64,000 bases of DNA from Mesorhizobium sp. B2-8-5 (GTDB lineage Bacteria; Pseudomonadota; Alphaproteobacteria; Rhizobiales; Rhizobiaceae), in NCBI RefSeq assembly GCF_006440675.2, contig NZ_CP083951.1, positions 2,513,501 through 2,577,500 on the forward strand, read 5' to 3'. The notes beneath the pieces were generated by a model. It saw nothing but the letters and a program-made list of their open reading frames with translations, was not told where the DNA came from and did not search any database. Each line of letters opens with the position of its first letter. The first letter of the stretch is position 1. This document shows positions 13,907 to 20,996 of the stretch, one piece after another. The translations under genes and the position numbers were made by a program.

Positions 13907-14365
13907 CTAGCTGAGCTGGCGAAGAGCTTCGCCCGCGACCATGGCGACGGACAGCGCGACATTGATGCTGCGCGCGCCCGGCCGCATCGGAATGGTCAGT
14001 CGCGCGTCCGCCGCCTGGTGGACCTGATCCGGCACGCCGGCGGATTCGCGGCCGAACAGAAGGATGTCGCCGGCAGCGAAAGCAAAGTCGGTGTAGGCGG
14101 CCGTGGCTTTGGTGGTGAGCAGCACGAGGCGGCGCGCGCCGGTCTTTCGCCACTCCTCGAAGGCGTGCCAGTCGGCATGGCGGGAAAGCGCCGCCATTTC
14201 GAGGTAGTCCATGCCGGCCCGTTTCAGCGCCCGGTCGGAGAGCGGGAAACCAGCCGGCTCGATGATATCGACGCCGATATCGAGGCAGGCGGCGAAGCGC
14301 AGGATTGTCCCGGTGTTGCCGGCGATATCCGGCTGGTAGAGCGCGATGCGGAGACGATCGTTCAT
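13907..14365 (-). CDS. trmL: tRNA (cytidine(34)-2'-O)-methyltransferase
   Basis: A 152-residue SPOUT methyltransferase made of the catalytic knot domain only, as is usual for TrmL. Motifs are [15 protein letters not shown] at the N-terminus, [11 protein letters not shown] in motif 2 and [16 protein letters not shown] in motif 3, forming the trefoil-knot SAM site. It 2'-O-methylates the wobble base of tRNA-Leu species. ATG 14365 begins [11 protein letters not shown] as in the family. The gene is separated from soxR by 148 bp containing the sox box. Confidence 0.93.
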
Positions 14366-14505
14366 TTCCGTATCCTGCTAATAAGTGGCAGATCGGCCAC
14401 AGGCGCCTGCGGCTTTCGGCGATTTCTGGACTGGCGGGTGGCCATTTTCTGCGAAGTCGAGTATATGCTGACCATCGTCAACCCGAACCGAAGGAGGGGG
14501 ACCAC

Positions 14506-14583
14506 ATGATGACCATGCACTTCCAGCTCCTCTCCGGGGCACCCCTATGCCCACCGGCGGTTTCGGTACGACGATTCTTCTGA
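14506..14583 (+). CDS. Short leader peptide (25 codons)
   Basis: A small frame opening Met-Met-Thr-Met-His at ATG 14506 or 14509, with AAGGAGGGGG ending five or eight bases upstream, the strongest Shine-Dalgarno seen in the window. The peptide contains LCPPAVSVRRFF, with a Pro-Pro pair, and uses codons that look rare for this GC-rich genome (CTA, tandem CGA CGA) before TGA 14583. It is followed by a hairpin covering the next ribosome site. I read it as a regulatory leader of the ABC exporter operon. It is not a family I recognise. Confidence 0.6.
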   Translation: MMTMHFQLLSGAPLCPPAVSVRRFF

Positions 14584-14605
14584 CACTTTAAGTCCTCATC
14601 GCACC

Positions 14606-14644
14606 GATTCCCGTCGAACCCAGTTTTCGGCCTTCGAAGGAATC
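14606..14644 (+). promoter_or_regulatory. Hairpin sequestering the next Shine-Dalgarno
   Basis: Arms GATTCCCGTCGAA (14606-14618) and TTCGAAGGAATC (14633-14644) pair nearly fully around a 14-base loop. The right arm contains AAGGA (14637-14641), the ribosome site of the ORF at 14650. The end of the leader (GATTCTTC, 14573-14580) could pair with the same arm instead. Confidence 0.6.
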
Positions 14645-14649
14645 TTGCG

Positions 14650-15276
14650 ATGTTTTTCAAACTGCCAAAGGGGCGCCGCGCCCCCGCTGAACGTGTCAAG
14701 ACCGATGCTTGCCGTCGTGTCAAGAACGACGGTTGCCGTCGTGCCGAGGCTGACGCTCGTCGTCCGGTTCCGGCCGATTCGATCCGCGCCTTGGGCCGAA
14801 TGCCGGTGGTCGAGGCCGCATCACCCTTTTTAACGCATTTGCATATGGAGGACGGACCGATGTTCGATCCCTACAAGATACCGGGGTCAAGAAGCCTGCA
14901 TGAGCGCAAGGTGGCTACCTGGGCGTTGCTGATCGGCGAGACCTATTCCTCGGCGGTGCATGCCGAGGAACGGCGCAGGCCGCATCGCGGCATGCTGCCG
15001 GACGTCGATTTCTCGCGTGCGGTGCCCGACCACAGCCGGCCCACGCTGGTGCGCCGGATCATCCGTTTGATCCGGCCGGGCGACAGGAACCGGGCAGGCT
15101 CCGGCCTTTCGTCAGGAACTTCGGGGCCGTCAGGATCGTCAAACGAACCTGTCGGCGAAATGCCGGCGAAACCCTATATTGCGCGGGATAGGGCCGGCGA
15201 CTCGGATGATTCCGTGTCGCCGGTCCGCAATGCCGCGCGGCCGCAAAGCCTTGCCCATCAATCCCGCGCCGCGTGA
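14650..15276 (+). CDS. Uncharacterised protein with octapeptide repeats, heads the ABC exporter operon
   Basis: A 208-residue frame starting at ATG 14650 (AAGGA nine bases upstream, inside a hairpin). The N-terminal part has three octapeptide repeats (RVKTDACR, RVKNDGCR, RAEADARR). An internal ATG at 14860 has its own GGAGGA seven bases upstream and begins MFDPYKIPGSRSLHERKV, so translation may start there, giving 138 residues. The C-terminal half is low complexity and Ser/Gly/Arg rich, with no signal peptide or membrane segment. The stop overlaps a GTG near the start of the first ABC exporter. I do not recognise the family; it may be partly regulatory RNA. Confidence 0.5.
   Translation: MFFKLPKGRRAPAERVKTDACRRVKNDGCRRAEADARRPVPADSIRALGRMPVVEAASPFLTHLHMEDGPMFDPYKIPGSRSLHERKVATWALLIGETYSSAVHAEERRRPHRGMLPDVDFSRAVPDHSRPTLVRRIIRLIRPGDRNRAGSGLSSGTSGPSGSSNEPVGEMPAKPYIARDRAGDSDDSVSPVRNAARPQSLAHQSRAA
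14692..14763 (+). repeat. Three 24-bp imperfect tandem repeats
   Basis: Each unit starts CGTG and ends TGCCGT or TCGTCGT; copies lie at 14692-14715, 14716-14739 and 14740-14763. They encode the octapeptides of the protein at 14650. Confidence 0.75.
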
Positions 15277-15302
15277 GCGCACAGATAAGTCGAGTGCCTG
15301 GA

Positions 15303-17183
15303 ATGTTCCGCTGGTTTGAAAACAGGCTCGATCCGTTCCCCGCCGCGGAGCCGGTCGAGCCGCCGAGGACGCTGATCGCGTTTTGCGTGCACTACACGCG
15401 CGGCGCCTGGCCCTACATCGTCGTCGATGCGGTGCTGGTGACGGCGATCGCCTTCACCGAAGTCTGGATGTTCGGCTTCCTCGGCCGCATCGTCGACTGG
15501 CTGTCGGCGCAGAACCGCGAAACCTTCCTGCAGACGGAGATCTGGAAGCTCGCCGGCATGGCTTTCGTCGTGCTGTTCGCGCTGCCGGGCACGGTATGGC
15601 TGCATTCGCTGCTCAACCAGCAGACGCTGATGGGCAATTATCCCATGCGCATCCGCTGGCAGGTGCATCGCTATCTGCTCAAGCAGTCGATGGCCTTCTA
15701 CCAGGACGAGTTCGCCGGCCGCATCGCCACCAAGCTGATGCAGACGGCGCTCGCCGTGCGCGAATGCGTGATCAAGCTGATCGACGTGCTGAACTACGTC
15801 GTCGTCTACTTCCTCGGCATGTTGTTCATCGTCGGCTCGGCCGACTGGCGGCTGGCCGCACCGCTCGCCGTCTGGCTGGTCGGCTATATCGGGCTCTTGC
15901 GCTTTTTCATTCCACGGCTCGGCAAGGTCGGCGAAGAGCAGGCCAATGCGCGCTCGACCATGACCGGCCGCGTCGTCGACAGCTACACCAACATCCAGAC
16001 GGTGAAGCTGTTTTCGCATGCGCGGCGCGAGGCAACCTTCGCCAGGGAAGGCATGGCGAGCTTCCTCGACACCGTCTACCGCTCGATGCGGCTGGTGACG
16101 GTGCTCTACGGCCTGCTCTACATCTTGAATTCGCTGCTTCTGTTCTCCGTCACGGCAATCTCGCTATGGCTTTGGCTGGGGCAGGCGGTGACGATTGGCG
16201 CCGTCGCCGTGGTCATCGGCCTTGTCCTGCGAATGTGGGGCATGTCGCAATGGATCATGTGGGAGATGTCCGGGCTGTTCGAGAATATCGGCACGGTGCA
16301 GGACGGCATCCAGTCGATCTCGCTGCCGCGCCTGGTCGAGGACAGGCCGGGCGCCAAGGACATCAGTGTCAGCCAGGGTGAGATCCGCTTTGACGACATC
16401 CGCTTCCACTATGGCAAGCAGAAGGGCGTCATCGAGAACTTGTCGCTTACCGTGAAGCCCGGCGAGAAGGTCGGCATCGTCGGCCGCTCGGGCGCCGGCA
16501 AGTCGACGCTGGTCAATCTGCTGCTGCGCTTCTACGACCTGGAAAGCGGCAGGATCCTCGTCGACGGCCAGGAGATCGCGGCGGTGACGCAGGATTCGCT
16601 GCGCGCGCAGATCGGCATGGTGACGCAGGACACCTCGCTGCTGCACCGCTCGGTGAGGGAGAACATCCTCTACGGCCGGCCCGACGCGACCGACGAGATG
16701 CTCACCGAGGCGGCGCGCCGGGCGGAGGCGCTCGATTTCATCGGCGGGCTTTCGGACCACAACGGCCGCAAGGGCTTCGACGCCCATGTCGGCGACCGCG
16801 GCGTCAAACTGTCCGGCGGCCAGCGCCAGCGCGTCGCGATCGCCCGCGTCATGCTGAAGGACGCCCCGATCCTGATCCTCGACGAGGCGACCTCGGCGCT
16901 CGATTCGGAAGCCGAGGCCGCGATCCAGGAGAACCTCTACAAGCTGATGCAGGGCAAGACCGTCATTGCCATCGCGCACCGTCTGTCGACCATCGCGGCG
17001 ATGGACAGGCTCGTCGTCATGGACAAGGGCCGCATCATCGAGGAAGGCTCGCATGAGGAACTCGTCGCCAAGGGCGGGCTCTATGCGCAGCTCTGGCAGC
17101 GCCAGTCCGGCGGCTTCCTGCTCGATGACGCGCCGACCGAGGTTGATGCCAAGGCGCCGGAATCCGAGATGGCAGCTGAGTAA
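15303..17183 (+). CDS. ABC exporter half-transporter 1 (fused TMD-NBD)
   Basis: A 626-residue ABC exporter: six-helix membrane domain (about residues 25-330), then a nucleotide-binding domain with Walker A GRSGAGKST, signature LSGGQRQR, Walker B ILILDEATSALD and the H-loop AIAHRLST. ATG 15303 (MFRWFENRLDPF) is chosen because the two downstream paralogues begin in the same way (MLDRIFTWFES, MMKGVYRWFER); a GTG at 15273 would add ten residues and overlap the preceding stop. It is the first of three tandem paralogues, so heterodimers are possible. The substrate is unknown; similarity to multidrug or lipid exporters is general. Confidence 0.92.
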   Translation: MFRWFENRLDPFPAAEPVEPPRTLIAFCVHYTRGAWPYIVVDAVLVTAIAFTEVWMFGFLGRIVDWLSAQNRETFLQTEIWKLAGMAFVVLFALPGTVWLHSLLNQQTLMGNYPMRIRWQVHRYLLKQSMAFYQDEFAGRIATKLMQTALAVRECVIKLIDVLNYVVVYFLGMLFIVGSADWRLAAPLAVWLVGYIGLLRFFIPRLGKVGEEQANARSTMTGRVVDSYTNIQTVKLFSHARREATFAREGMASFLDTVYRSMRLVTVLYGLLYILNSLLLFSVTAISLWLWLGQAVTIGAVAVVIGLVLRMWGMSQWIMWEMSGLFENIGTVQDGIQSISLPRLVEDRPGAKDISVSQGEIRFDDIRFHYGKQKGVIENLSLTVKPGEKVGIVGRSGAGKSTLVNLLLRFYDLESGRILVDGQEIAAVTQDSLRAQIGMVTQDTSLLHRSVRENILYGRPDATDEMLTEAARRAEALDFIGGLSDHNGRKGFDAHVGDRGVKLSGGQRQRVAIARVMLKDAPILILDEATSALDSEAEAAIQENLYKLMQGKTVIAIAHRLSTIAAMDRLVVMDKGRIIEEGSHEELVAKGGLYAQLWQRQSGGFLLDDAPTEVDAKAPESEMAAE

Positions 17184-17223
17184 CGCGATCGCGATTGCAG
17201 TTTCCGGCGTCTATGAGAGAAAA

Positions 17224-19116
17224 ATGCTCGACCGCATCTTCACCTGGTTCGAAAGCCGCTATTCGCCGGTGGCGCTGGCCGAAGACAGGCAGCCGCCAAT
17301 GGGGCTTTGGCGGTTCTACTGGTATTTCATAAGGCAGTTTCGCACCGCCTATTGGCTGCGCATCGTCATCGTTGCGGTCGCGGCAATCGTGGACGCGATG
17401 CTGCCGATTTTCGTCGGCCTGATCGTGGGCCTGCTCTCCAGCACCAGGCCGGGAGACTTCTTCGCCGCCCATGGGCCGCTGCTCGTGCTGATGGCGTTCG
17501 TCGTGCTGCTGCGCCCGCTGTCGATGGTCATCGACGCGCTTATCCGCAACCATGCCATCGCGCCAAACCTCATCGACCTCATCCGCTGGCAGAGCCATTG
17601 GCATGTCGTGCGCCAGGACTGGTCGTTCTTCCAGAACGACTTCGCCGGCCGCATCGGAACCAAGGTTATGCAAAGCGGCGATTCGATGGAGATGAGCGTC
17701 AACCTCACCGTCGATGCCGTCTGGTATGCACTGGTCTTCGTTGCGGTCGCCATCGTCGTGCTGGCGCGGCTCGATCCGCTTCTCCTGGCGGTCGTGGCGG
17801 TGTGGCTGGTGTTCTATTGCCTGATCTTCTGGTCCGCGATGCCCAGGATCACGCAACGCTCGTCCCAACTGTCGGAGCGGTGGTCCCAGGTGAGCGGCCG
17901 CATGGTCGACAGCTACACCAACATCCTGACGCTCAAGACATTCTCGACCGGCGAGCACGAAGACAAATATGTCTCGCAGGCAGTCGTCGAGCACGCCGAC
18001 ACATTCTACCAGCTGATGCGCGTTTTCACCCTGATGTGGTCGGCCCTGTTCGTCCTCAACGCGGCGCTGCTCATCGCCGTGAGCTGGCTGGCGCTCGTCG
18101 GCTGGAACGCCGGCGCCTTGACCACCGCGGCCGTCGCGACCGCGATACCGTTCGCGCTGCAGATCGCCAACATCTCCGGAAGGATCCTCGACGTCGGCGC
18201 CAACGTCTTCCGGCAGATCGGCGTCGCCAGCAACTCGATGACGACGATCGCGCGGCCGATCGTCATGCAGGACCAGCCCGACGCACCGGCCCTCGTCGTG
18301 ACCGCCGGCGGCATCGAGTTCGACCGGGTGAACTTCAATTACTGGCGCAAGGACGGCAAAGGCGGGGTCATCGACAATCTGTCGCTGAAGATCGCGCCGG
18401 GCGAGCGGGTCGGCCTGATCGGCCGTTCGGGAGCCGGCAAGTCGACGCTGGTCAATCTCGTGCTGCGGCTGTTTGACGTCCAAGACGGCAAGGTGCTGAT
18501 CGACGGGCAGGACATCCGCAACGTCTCGCAGGAAAGCGTTCGGACGGCGATAGGCTTCGTCAACCAGGACACCTCGCTCTTGCATCGATCCGTTCGCGAG
18601 AACCTCAAATATGGGCGCCAGACGGCTAGCGACGAGGCGATGTTCAGCGCCGCCAAAGCCGCCCAGATCGACGATGTGATCGCGGGGCTGACCGATCCCC
18701 ATGGGCAGAGCGGCTATGAGGCGCTTGTCGGCGAGCGCGGCGTGAAGCTGTCCGGCGGCCAGCGGCAACGCATCGCAATTGCCCGCGTTATGCTGAAGGA
18801 CGCGCCGATCCTCATTCTCGACGAGGCCACGTCCGCGCTCGATTCAGAAGTGGAAGCCGCCATCCAGGAGAACCTCTACAAGCTCATGCAGGGCAAGACC
18901 GTCATCGCCATCGCTCACCGCCTGTCCACCATCGCGGCGATGGACCGGCTCGTCGTCATGGACAAGGGCCGCATCGTCGAGGACGGCTCGCATGAGGCGC
19001 TGATCGCCAGGGGCGGGCTCTACGCCCAGCTCTGGCGGCGCCAGTCGGGCGGGTTCCTGCTGGAGGAAAAACCGGTCGCCGACGATCTGGCGACGAAAGG
19101 TGAAGCCGCCGAATGA
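17224..19116 (+). CDS. ABC exporter half-transporter 2 (fused TMD-NBD)
   Basis: A 630-residue paralogue of the preceding gene, 40 bp downstream. It has a six-helix membrane domain, Walker A GRSGAGKST, signature LSGGQRQR, Walker B ILILDEATSALD and the same H-loop. Its last 110 residues are nearly identical to exporter 1 (for example ENLYKLMQGKTVIAIAHRLS), while the membrane domains differ much more. This points to different substrate pockets with a shared, possibly gene-converted ATPase. Its stop overlaps the start of exporter 3 by four bases (ATGA). ATG 17224 aligns with the paralogues. Confidence 0.92.
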   Translation: MLDRIFTWFESRYSPVALAEDRQPPMGLWRFYWYFIRQFRTAYWLRIVIVAVAAIVDAMLPIFVGLIVGLLSSTRPGDFFAAHGPLLVLMAFVVLLRPLSMVIDALIRNHAIAPNLIDLIRWQSHWHVVRQDWSFFQNDFAGRIGTKVMQSGDSMEMSVNLTVDAVWYALVFVAVAIVVLARLDPLLLAVVAVWLVFYCLIFWSAMPRITQRSSQLSERWSQVSGRMVDSYTNILTLKTFSTGEHEDKYVSQAVVEHADTFYQLMRVFTLMWSALFVLNAALLIAVSWLALVGWNAGALTTAAVATAIPFALQIANISGRILDVGANVFRQIGVASNSMTTIARPIVMQDQPDAPALVVTAGGIEFDRVNFNYWRKDGKGGVIDNLSLKIAPGERVGLIGRSGAGKSTLVNLVLRLFDVQDGKVLIDGQDIRNVSQESVRTAIGFVNQDTSLLHRSVRENLKYGRQTASDEAMFSAAKAAQIDDVIAGLTDPHGQSGYEALVGERGVKLSGGQRQRIAIARVMLKDAPILILDEATSALDSEVEAAIQENLYKLMQGKTVIAIAHRLSTIAAMDRLVVMDKGRIVEDGSHEALIARGGLYAQLWRRQSGGFLLEEKPVADDLATKGEAAE

Positions 19117-20996
19117 TGAAGGGCGTCTATCGCTGGTTCGAGCGCTGGGTCTACCCGTTCCGCGAGCCGGCGAATCTGCGGCCGCCCGCCAGCGTCGGCG
19201 GCTTTCTCTGGCACTATGTCGGCCAGGCGAAGCTCGCCTTCTTCGCCATGCTGATCATCGGCGGCATCGCGCCGCTGGTCGAGGCCGGCCTGTTCTATTT
19301 CGTCGGAAGGCTGGTCGATATCCTCGACCAGCTGCCCGGCGAACGCAACTGGCACGCGCTTTGGGCCGCGGCCGGTCCCGAGCTCTTGTTCATGGGCGCG
19401 GTGGTGCTCGTCATCCGCACCGCCGTGGTCGGCCTGTCGGCGCTTGTCGACGAACAGACGATCACGCCCGGCTTCTACAATCTGGTGCGCTGGCAGGCGC
19501 ATCGGCATGTCTCGCGCCAGTCCTACGCCTTCTTCCAGAATGATTTCGCCGGCCGCATTGCCACCAAGGTTTGGCAGGCGGGGCAAGCGACGGGCGACCT
19601 GATGGAAAGCTTCATCGAGGTCGTGTGGTTCATGATCGTCTATACGGTCACCACGCTGGCGCTGGTCGCCGGTCTCGATCTGCGGCTGGCGGTGCTGGTG
19701 GTGATCTGGATCGCCGCCTTCGGCTGGCTGGCGAAACTCTATCTGCCGGCGATCCGCAAGCATGCAGAGGCGACGGCCGAGGCCGGCTCGATGATCAACG
19801 GCCGTATCGTCGATTCCTATTCCAACGTGCAGACGCTGAAACTGTTTTCAGCCGATGGCGACGACCGCTATATTCGCAGCGGCTTCGACATCTATCTCGA
19901 CGCGCTACGGCCGTTCACGCGCCGGCTGACCGGCGTGCGCATGGCGCTGACCATGCTCTCCGGCATCATGATCACGGCGATCGCAGCCTTTGCCATCTAT
20001 CTCTGGGTCGAAGGCTCGATCACGGTCGGCGCCGTTGCCTTCACACTGTCGCTGGTGCTCAGGCTCAACATGCTGCTTGGAAGGCTGATGATGCAGCTCA
20101 ACGGCATCTTGCGAAACCTCGGCGTGCTGGAGAACTCCAAGGCGCTGATTTCGCAGCCGTTGGGCCTGACCGACGCGCCGGACGCCAAGGAACTGGTCGT
20201 CACCGGCGGCCGCATCGAGGTCAGGAACGTCACCTTCCATTACGGCAAGGGGCAAGGCGTGCTCGACGGCATCGATCTCGTCGTGCGTCCGGGCGAGAAG
20301 GTCGGGCTGGTCGGCCCGTCGGGCGCCGGCAAGACGACCTTGGCCAACCTGATCCTGCGCCTCTACGACCTGGAGGGTGGCCAGATCCTGATCGACGGCC
20401 AGGACATCGCCGGGGTCACGCAGAACTCGCTGCGCGGCAATATCGGCGTCGTCAGCCAGGATACCGCGCTGTTCCACCGCTCGCTGCGCGACAACATCAA
20501 GCTCGGCATGCCGAATGCCACCGACGCGCAGGTTATCGCCGCGGCCAGGAAAGCCGAGGCGCATGACTTCATCCTCGGACTGCGCGACAACCGCGGCCGC
20601 GCCGGCTACGAGGCCTATGTCGGCGAGCGCGGCGTGAAGCTGTCCGGCGGGCAGCGGCAGCGCGTGGCGATCGCCCGCGTCTTCCTCAAGGATGCGCCGA
20701 TCCTGATCCTCGACGAGGCGACCTCGGCGCTCGATTCGGACATCGAGGCGGCGATCCAGGAGAATCTGACCAGGCTGATGGAAAGCAAGACCGTGATCGC
20801 CATCGCGCACCGGCTGTCGACGATCGCGGCGCTCGACCGGCTGGTGGTGCTCGACGGCGGCCGCATCGTCGAACAGGGTACGCATGACGAACTGGTGGCG
20901 CTCGATGGGCTCTATGCGCGGCTCTGGAAACGGCAGTCCGGCGGCTTCCTGTTCAATGAGGAAAGCGCGCTGGAAGAGACGCGCCCTGCGGAGTAG
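19113..20996 (+). CDS. ABC exporter half-transporter 3 (fused TMD-NBD)
   Basis: The 627-residue third paralogue: six-helix membrane domain and NBD with Walker A GPSGAGKTT, signature LSGGQRQR, Walker B ILILDEATSALD and AIAHRLST. The C-terminus ends in the same RQSGGFLF motif as the other two (RQSGGFLL). It is the most divergent of the three in the NBD (ENLTRLMESK instead of ENLYKLMQGK). The ATGA overlap with exporter 2 implies coupled translation and a stoichiometric relation. A small DUF6665-like gene follows ten bases later. The substrate is unknown. Confidence 0.92.
   Translation: MMKGVYRWFERWVYPFREPANLRPPASVGGFLWHYVGQAKLAFFAMLIIGGIAPLVEAGLFYFVGRLVDILDQLPGERNWHALWAAAGPELLFMGAVVLVIRTAVVGLSALVDEQTITPGFYNLVRWQAHRHVSRQSYAFFQNDFAGRIATKVWQAGQATGDLMESFIEVVWFMIVYTVTTLALVAGLDLRLAVLVVIWIAAFGWLAKLYLPAIRKHAEATAEAGSMINGRIVDSYSNVQTLKLFSADGDDRYIRSGFDIYLDALRPFTRRLTGVRMALTMLSGIMITAIAAFAIYLWVEGSITVGAVAFTLSLVLRLNMLLGRLMMQLNGILRNLGVLENSKALISQPLGLTDAPDAKELVVTGGRIEVRNVTFHYGKGQGVLDGIDLVVRPGEKVGLVGPSGAGKTTLANLILRLYDLEGGQILIDGQDIAGVTQNSLRGNIGVVSQDTALFHRSLRDNIKLGMPNATDAQVIAAARKAEAHDFILGLRDNRGRAGYEAYVGERGVKLSGGQRQRVAIARVFLKDAPILILDEATSALDSDIEAAIQENLTRLMESKTVIAIAHRLSTIAALDRLVVLDGGRIVEQGTHDELVALDGLYARLWKRQSGGFLFNEESALEETRPAE

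Follow-up and report, generated by a model that had tools for sequence, protein, structure and literature searches.

Why does a short ORF with its own ribosome site stand ahead of an operon of ABC exporters, and is it the peptide or the passage of the ribosome that matters? The question is raised by one region of the window, as we call the whole 64000-nt stretch of Mesorhizobium sp. B2-8-5 DNA analysed here. A minus-strand gene (13907–14365), whose product belongs to the SpoU methylase family and which we take to be trmL, and three ABC half-exporters flank this leader/switch region (Table 1). The genes beyond the exporters presumably encode a Rieske protein and cytochrome b, judging from their sequences.

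A sequence-only reading of the region had proposed the erm-type layout, with two exclusive RNA structures, one hiding the next ribosome site, ahead of three ABC exporters. Our analysis bears out that layout, and the interpretation as a whole is partly supported. The 25-codon leader ORF with its own Shine–Dalgarno (SD) sequence, which that reading had described, was confirmed. The proposed stem (14606–14618 with 14633–14644) was also recovered in the predicted fold, where it buries the ribosome site of the next ORF (ORF2). A longer stem adds CATCGC (14597–14602) paired with GCGATG (14647–14652), so that both the SD sequence and the AUG (14650) of ORF2 are paired in the prediction. This predicted fold has a z value of −1.8, with six of 200 dinucleotide shuffles folding equally well.

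Table 1. Positions of the leader, the switch segments and the downstream genes in the window
Feature	Position	Strand	Remarks
Segment 1 (CCGAACCGA)	14483–14491	+	Abuts the leader SD on its upstream side; able to pair with segment 2
Leader ORF SD, AAGGAGG	14491–14497	+	Read in the window sequence
Leader ORF, 25 codons, MMTMHFQLLSGAPLCPPAVSVRRFF	14506–14583	+	Extended type
Segment 2 (CGGCGGTTTCGGTACGACG)	14555–14573	+	Best-conserved stretch; partner is segment 1 or 3
Segment 3 (CATCGCACCGATTCCCGTCG)	14597–14616	+	Partner is segment 2 or segment 4
Apical hairpin GTCGAA/TTCGGC	14613–14631	+	Within the sequestering stem
Segment 4: ORF2 SD (GAAGGAA) and AUG	14633–14652	+	Buried by the predicted 3:4 stem
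ORF2, 208 aa	14650–15276	+	Stop overlaps the ABC1 start
ABC half-exporter 1 (ABC1)	15273–17183	+	PF00664 and PF00005; GTG start
ABC half-exporter 2	17173–19116	+	PF00664 and PF00005; start codon provisional
ABC half-exporter 3	19113–20996	+	PF00664 and PF00005

Distribution of the element

A nucleotide search matched the DNA region in all 37 same-genus genomes examined, the organism's own included, with two of the matches weak (E values of 3.5e-5 and 3.1e-4), and in none of 24 genomes of other genera. Of 394 genomes from the family, 69 were matched at E≤0.01 by a covariance model built from 13 same-genus sequences. At the same threshold a second model, built from 56 diverse loci, matched 136 of them, spread over 55 of 109 genera, and these figures include chance matches; at E≤1e-6 it matched 102 genomes and 35 genera, a manual count from the score table in which the model-building loci are included. 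ABC1 lay downstream in 100 of these 102 genomes, the exceptions being L090 (at a contig end) and L137, and 95 of the 100 had trmL upstream within the sequence retrieved. By search round, ABC1 was downstream at 64 of 70 first-round loci, the excluded ones being L090 and five with no same-strand ABC1 (L099, L102, L105, L106 and L108), and at 37 of 40 second-round loci (L137, L161 and L162 excluded), none of the 40 having been used in any model. The organism's own genome held one copy at E≤0.01 with the covariance model. Among 297 order-wide genomes, 36 had a match; the 27 from other families were all weak, with best E values between 1e-4 and 1e-2, and were regarded as chance. One exact core pattern was found in 15 named contigs (seven Mesorhizobium, three Pseudaminobacter, one Aquamicrobium and four other MAGs).

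Four alignments were made. A1 held 13 hand-picked loci; A2 began with the 64 first-round loci and 16 of the 38 same-genus loci found earlier, 80 in all, of which a 93% identity filter left 70 before L069 was removed; A3 held 56 of the 69 A2 loci; and A4 comprised 37 loci, seven second units and the window. These second leader-plus-switch units lie 559–600 nt downstream of the first in seven genomes, six of them from one genus (L126, L133, L134, L136, L142, L143, plus L097), and the second leader of L142 reads MDYSMLTSLAGLRPWFTARREA. At L069 and L075, two overlapping or adjoining matches lie approximately 110 nt apart, with a leader and a segment-2-like stretch upstream of the matched copy. L137 has, at approximately 1200 in the oriented stretch, a unit in which a leader precedes an ORF of 73 aa that begins at the buried start. 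Neither trmL nor ABC1 was matched in the sequence retrieved for this locus, where the switch may serve ORF2 alone. Its neighbours, named by eye from the sequence, are presumably fumarase-like and aldo/keto-reductase-like genes.

No Rfam 15 family matched the window at the curated cut-off, and across seven loci Rfam 15 gave a single weak match at E≤1, away from the element. Upstream of the element in L142 (905–974), a similarity to the Brucella sRNA CI27 reached 27.6 bits compared with a cut-off of 59.8 and is probably due to chance. The comparison covered Rfam 15 families; the Rhizobiales-1 motif is printed in PMC2864571 without an Rfam number. Searches of an open-access full-text library yielded no description of the element, and the family is apparently undescribed, its kind, a leader-ORF translational attenuator, being already known.

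Comparative evidence for exclusive helices

The stem that buries ORF2 joins segments 3 and 4 (helix 3:4), and segment 2 can pair with its 5′ arm (helix 2:3). The alternative helix of the sequence-only reading had used the 3′ arm instead, paired with GATTCTTC (14573–14580). That pairing is possible in the window and is unconserved in relatives, which carry GATTCTCC, GCTT.. and others at this place, and it was rejected.

For helix 3:4, 82.3% of the cells across 69 loci were paired, 49 cells showed double changes, and the covariation was 0.207 compared with 0.152 (S.D. 0.006) in shuffles, none of 500 being as high. Helix 2:3 was paired in 87.2% of cells with 17 double-change cells, and its covariation of 0.089, compared with 0.057 (S.D. 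0.004), was again reached by none of 500 shuffles; sliding the partners by −2 gave 0.083, close to the real value, though with only 42.4% paired. Since the shuffles leave relatedness uncontrolled, changes were also counted on a tree. Parsimony on a TrmL plus ABC1 tree of 56 loci gave 12 double compensated replacements in 3:4, eight of them at one pair, and six in 2:3, where one pair falls on a gap column and contributes nothing. The compensatory stem changes that the sequence-only reading had suggested seeking in relatives are therefore found in 3:4; in its outer part, which contains the AUG, the same count gave zero.

We also examined 44 further units, which had entered no model's construction, together with the window in a rougher alignment. 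Shuffles with covariation as high numbered one of 500 for 3:4 and five of 500 for 2:3. This set leans towards 3:4 because its search model contains that helix, and two measures for 3:4 stood at the shuffle level (333/500 and 355/500), with a slide of +1 giving 58 double-change cells compared with 47. For 2:3, slides of −1 and −2 scored 0.137 and 0.112, above the real 0.107, with 56.6 and 44.5% paired respectively compared with 84.8%.

In a test that needs no alignment, segments from the same locus were set against swapped partners by their pairing energy, using 74 representatives. The z values were −9.5 for 3:4, −7.0 for 2:3 and −5.2 for segment 1 with segment 2 (helix 1:2), whereas the negative controls gave −0.9 (segment 2 with segment 4) and 0.1 (the 5′ region with segment 3). 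Helix 1:2 shows no column covariation and is retained, as probable, on its partner-swap value. For the leader body, segment 2 of the same locus was a worse partner than segment 2 of other loci (z +4.5). In a scan of 5087 column pairs, a 3:4 pair ranked first and ranks 2–7 came from neither helix. RNAalifold picked 2:3 without the 3:4 stem on both A1 and A3 (the A3 consensus energy being a weak −2.5 kcal/mol), and for this reason the two helices were counted separately. The stretch from segment 2 to the AUG folded with a mean z of −1.07 compared with −0.66 for the stretch past the AUG; a hairpin in the 3′ half of the leader was too weak to be kept (mean z −0.44 compared with −0.14 for a control stretch). 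The comparisons support two exclusive helices, 3:4, which would bury the ORF2 ribosome site, and 2:3, which would free it, and make an attenuator of this layout highly probable.

The leader stop and the leader peptide

A leader ORF of 14–30 codons with an SD-like word ahead of its start was present at 106 of 106 loci, a count made after removing L069, where the matched copy lacks such a leader. The SD criterion was loose and was demanded by the script (one of five G-rich four-base words 4–16 nt upstream of the start). In the leader-stop analysis, for which GTG starts were barred by hand at L058, L067, L083 and L140, the stop codon ended one base ahead of where GGCGG lies in segment 2 at 82 of the 106 loci, and two more loci departed from this place by one base, making 84; for second-round loci the GGCGG position is the start of the model match plus 7, where some loci have other bases. 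A tally of 80 such stops comprised 72 TGA, four TAA and four TAG codons, and the position was held whatever the peptide sequence. That one place is maintained through three different stop codons speaks against a metabolite riboswitch, in which a ligand around segment 2 would select 2:3 or 3:4 and the leader ORF would be incidental, as does the presence of the leader and its SD-like word at every locus. Segment 2 does have the most invariant columns, beyond apparent pairing needs, and no Rfam family fits the element, yet no large structured pocket was seen beyond the helices, and we consider such a riboswitch very improbable.

At 22 of the 106 loci, the window among them, the leader is of an extended type that continues through segment 2. 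Eighteen of them, 17 from the window's genus plus L048 of another, have SVRRF or SVRHF and a further residue as their C-terminus, and the remaining four, from a third genus, terminate with GSTLP, in a different frame; L034–L036, which belong to the window's genus, have the short form. Leaders outside this genus carry a different peptide and mostly terminate ahead of segment 2. Because short leaders stop before segment 2 and other extended ones differ in frame, the conserved C-terminus ...VSVRRF of the Mesorhizobium leaders is most simply explained as RNA segment 2 read as codons. Of the peptide, the conservation of which the sequence-only reading had proposed to look for, this end is conserved and the Mesorhizobium body is not.

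Leaders could be extracted from 31 of the 38 same-genus loci. The Pro-Pro pair that had been put forward as part of a stalling site occurs in three of these 31, the window included, and does not stand as a conserved signal. The tandem CGA codons fared better within the genus (26 of 31 leaders) but fail as a family-wide signal, and coding constraint is absent from the Mesorhizobium-type leaders; CGA is indeed rare here, accounting for six of 149 arginine codons in five window genes. In codons 2–17 of 14 Mesorhizobium-type leaders, departures numbered 37, 45 and 38 at codon positions 1, 2 and 3 respectively (kinship ignored), so no coding constraint was detected on the leader body in this set. 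The MEFMMTVDIHRP type gave 15, 10 and 31 departures by codon position in codons 2–12 of 19 leaders, again with kinship ignored, and 26 of 56 changes were synonymous compared with 20% expected, indicating a coding constraint seen in this set only.

R-x-R is a macrolide arrest motif, and [RK]-x-[RK] occurred in 20 of 51 non-redundant short-type leaders compared with 11.4 expected from within-peptide shuffles (P=0.001). Together with the constraint in the MEFMMTVDIHRP type and the exporter downstream, this enrichment favours nascent-peptide arrest in the strict erm sense, in which a drug bound in the exit tunnel would halt translation at one set leader motif, such as R-x-R, and so switch the exporter on. 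Codon 11, however, is arginine in 42 and cysteine in 20 of 83 leaders, and codon 12 proline in 26 and leucine in 24; because these two codons preserve the bases GCC, the motif may derive from the RNA, and as an arrest motif it was set aside as confounded with RNA conservation. With peptides that diverge widely among genera and a Mesorhizobium body free of coding constraint, strict arrest appears unlikely to us. With compensatory evidence in approximately 35 genera of one alphaproteobacterial family, nature supplies a set of leaders whose peptide, stop position and helices vary independently of one another, so that one can ask whether leaders read the peptide or the position of the ribosome.

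Ribosome position, downstream genes and known systems

The loci were folded with a ribosome placed on the leader, omitting the RNA upstream of and beneath it, with the leader stop set in the A site and L029 excluded. In transcripts ending before segment 4, 2:3 (at least six expected pairs) formed at 104 of 105 loci with a ribosome at codon 7, compared with 10 of 105 with one at the leader stop, whose footprint extends over segment 2; this masking by a terminating ribosome depends on an assumed footprint. In the full transcript, a ribosome at the stop left 3:4 (at least six) in 98 of 105 loci, and one at codon 7 gave median expected pairs of 8.1 for 3:4 compared with 2.4 for 2:3. Access to the ORF2 start changed little across 106 loci, being 0.346 for codon 7 compared with 0.298 for the stop, and was higher at codon 7 in 80 of the 106; in the window it was constant at 0.13 for every ribosome position. 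Helix 3:4 is thus predicted to be favoured at equilibrium, in the window outright. For that reason an ON state would need kinetic trapping, with 2:3 formed before segment 4 is made. Truncated folds without any ribosome still form 2:3 (mean of 9.0 pairs), so untranslated RNA might be ON as well.

The dominance of 3:4 at equilibrium would also suit a constitutive stem that merely lowers translation, with 2:3 and the leader having no regulatory role. Against it, 2:3 co-varies in its own right and the leader stop keeps its place with respect to segment 2, and we regard a constitutive stem as improbable. The best explanation, which we hold to be rather probable, is a leader-ORF translational attenuator that senses ribosome progress. 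A ribosome that reaches the leader stop would cover segment 2 and prevent 2:3, so that 3:4 would form and leave ORF2 and the coupled ABC genes untranslated. If a drug, starvation or slow initiation instead kept the ribosome at an earlier point of the leader, segment 2 would stay free, 2:3 would form ahead of the synthesis of segment 4, and ORF2 would be translated. This assignment, ON when ribosomes are held early and OFF at the stop, is the simplest reading of the folds and has perhaps an even chance of being right. The signal in Mesorhizobium would be the position of the ribosome rather than a fixed peptide, and the peptide may also contribute in the MEFMMTVDIHRP type. As for the input, antibiotic or translation stress is a possible reading that we put forward with reserve. 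More broadly, and with slightly less than even confidence, we propose an undescribed family of Rhizobiaceae riboregulators whose conserved input would be a ribosome reaching a stop codon set against the switch segment, independently of the peptide. Such regulators, the unit of which has been duplicated in tandem and can stand without the exporter, would respond to translation stress by setting the expression of an ABC exporter and of a small protein that changes quickly.

Leader-ORF translational attenuators are known mainly from Gram-positive resistance genes. As described in PMC11264731, ermB and ermC share with the present element a short leader ORF, two exclusive hairpins with a common segment and a buried next start, and hairpin 1 was predicted there after removing the last 12 nt, as with the truncated folds here. 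The target of these and other erm systems is an rRNA methyltransferase, whereas here it is ORF2 followed by ABC half-exporters; unlike in ermB and ermC, the peptide is unconserved across loci and the stop codon beside segment 2 is mostly kept.

Two rhizobial leaders come from Sinorhizobium meliloti, which belongs to the same bacterial family as the window's organism. The DUF1127 uORF, likened here by its description, is proposed in PMC12218461 to monitor ribosome availability and is induced by tetracycline; it differs in acting by transcription attenuation, with C-rich codons at the uORF start serving as the element, and in its target gene. The leader peptide peTrpL/rnTrpL is tied to antibiotic exposure and differs in being a 14-aa trp attenuator peptide that acts in trans, at another operon, according to PMC10117765. 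The same paper mentions seven novel small ORFs within transport-system operons, found by Ribo-seq in S. meliloti, which may overlap the element.

In Escherichia coli, the toiL uORF of toiL–topAI is proposed in PMC12121999 to sense translation stress by ribosome position, with the next ribosome site occluded by structure as here. There toiL itself pairs with the target SD, a task that falls to the separate segment 3 here, and topAI–yjhQ is a toxin–antitoxin system, unlike the present target. Both the DUF1127 leader (PMC12218461) and toiL–topAI (PMC12121999) are precedents for Rho-dependent attenuation; as the main effect here, it would mean that Rho terminates the transcript ahead of the ABC genes when ORF2 is untranslated. 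No intrinsic-terminator-like site (a GC-rich hairpin with a T run) was found within 14360–14880, which is in keeping with this idea, but the conserved parts hide or expose a ribosome site, and we doubt that Rho termination is the principal outcome.

Under the preferred translational attenuator, ORF2 is the predicted direct target, because it begins at the buried AUG, and the exporters would follow by translational coupling. The ORF from the buried start ends at most 50 nt from the ABC1 alignment or overlaps ABC1 at 51 of 69 loci, and earlier at the other 18. The element also offers a handle on the ABC exporter operon. ORF2 ranges from 31 to 208 aa across loci and had no Pfam or NCBIfam match; its relatives bear Mesorhizobium names, and of the 329 found, the 120 listed are hypothetical or uncharacterized where named. 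Within ORF2 of the window, a second SD-like site with an in-frame ATG (MFDPYKIPGSR...) lies at 14845–14863, and shorter database relatives (132–138 aa) may have been annotated from this ATG. Near the N-terminus of ORF2 (14690–14770) there is a repetitive Asp/Cys-Arg-Arg stretch, the length of which differs among related genomes.
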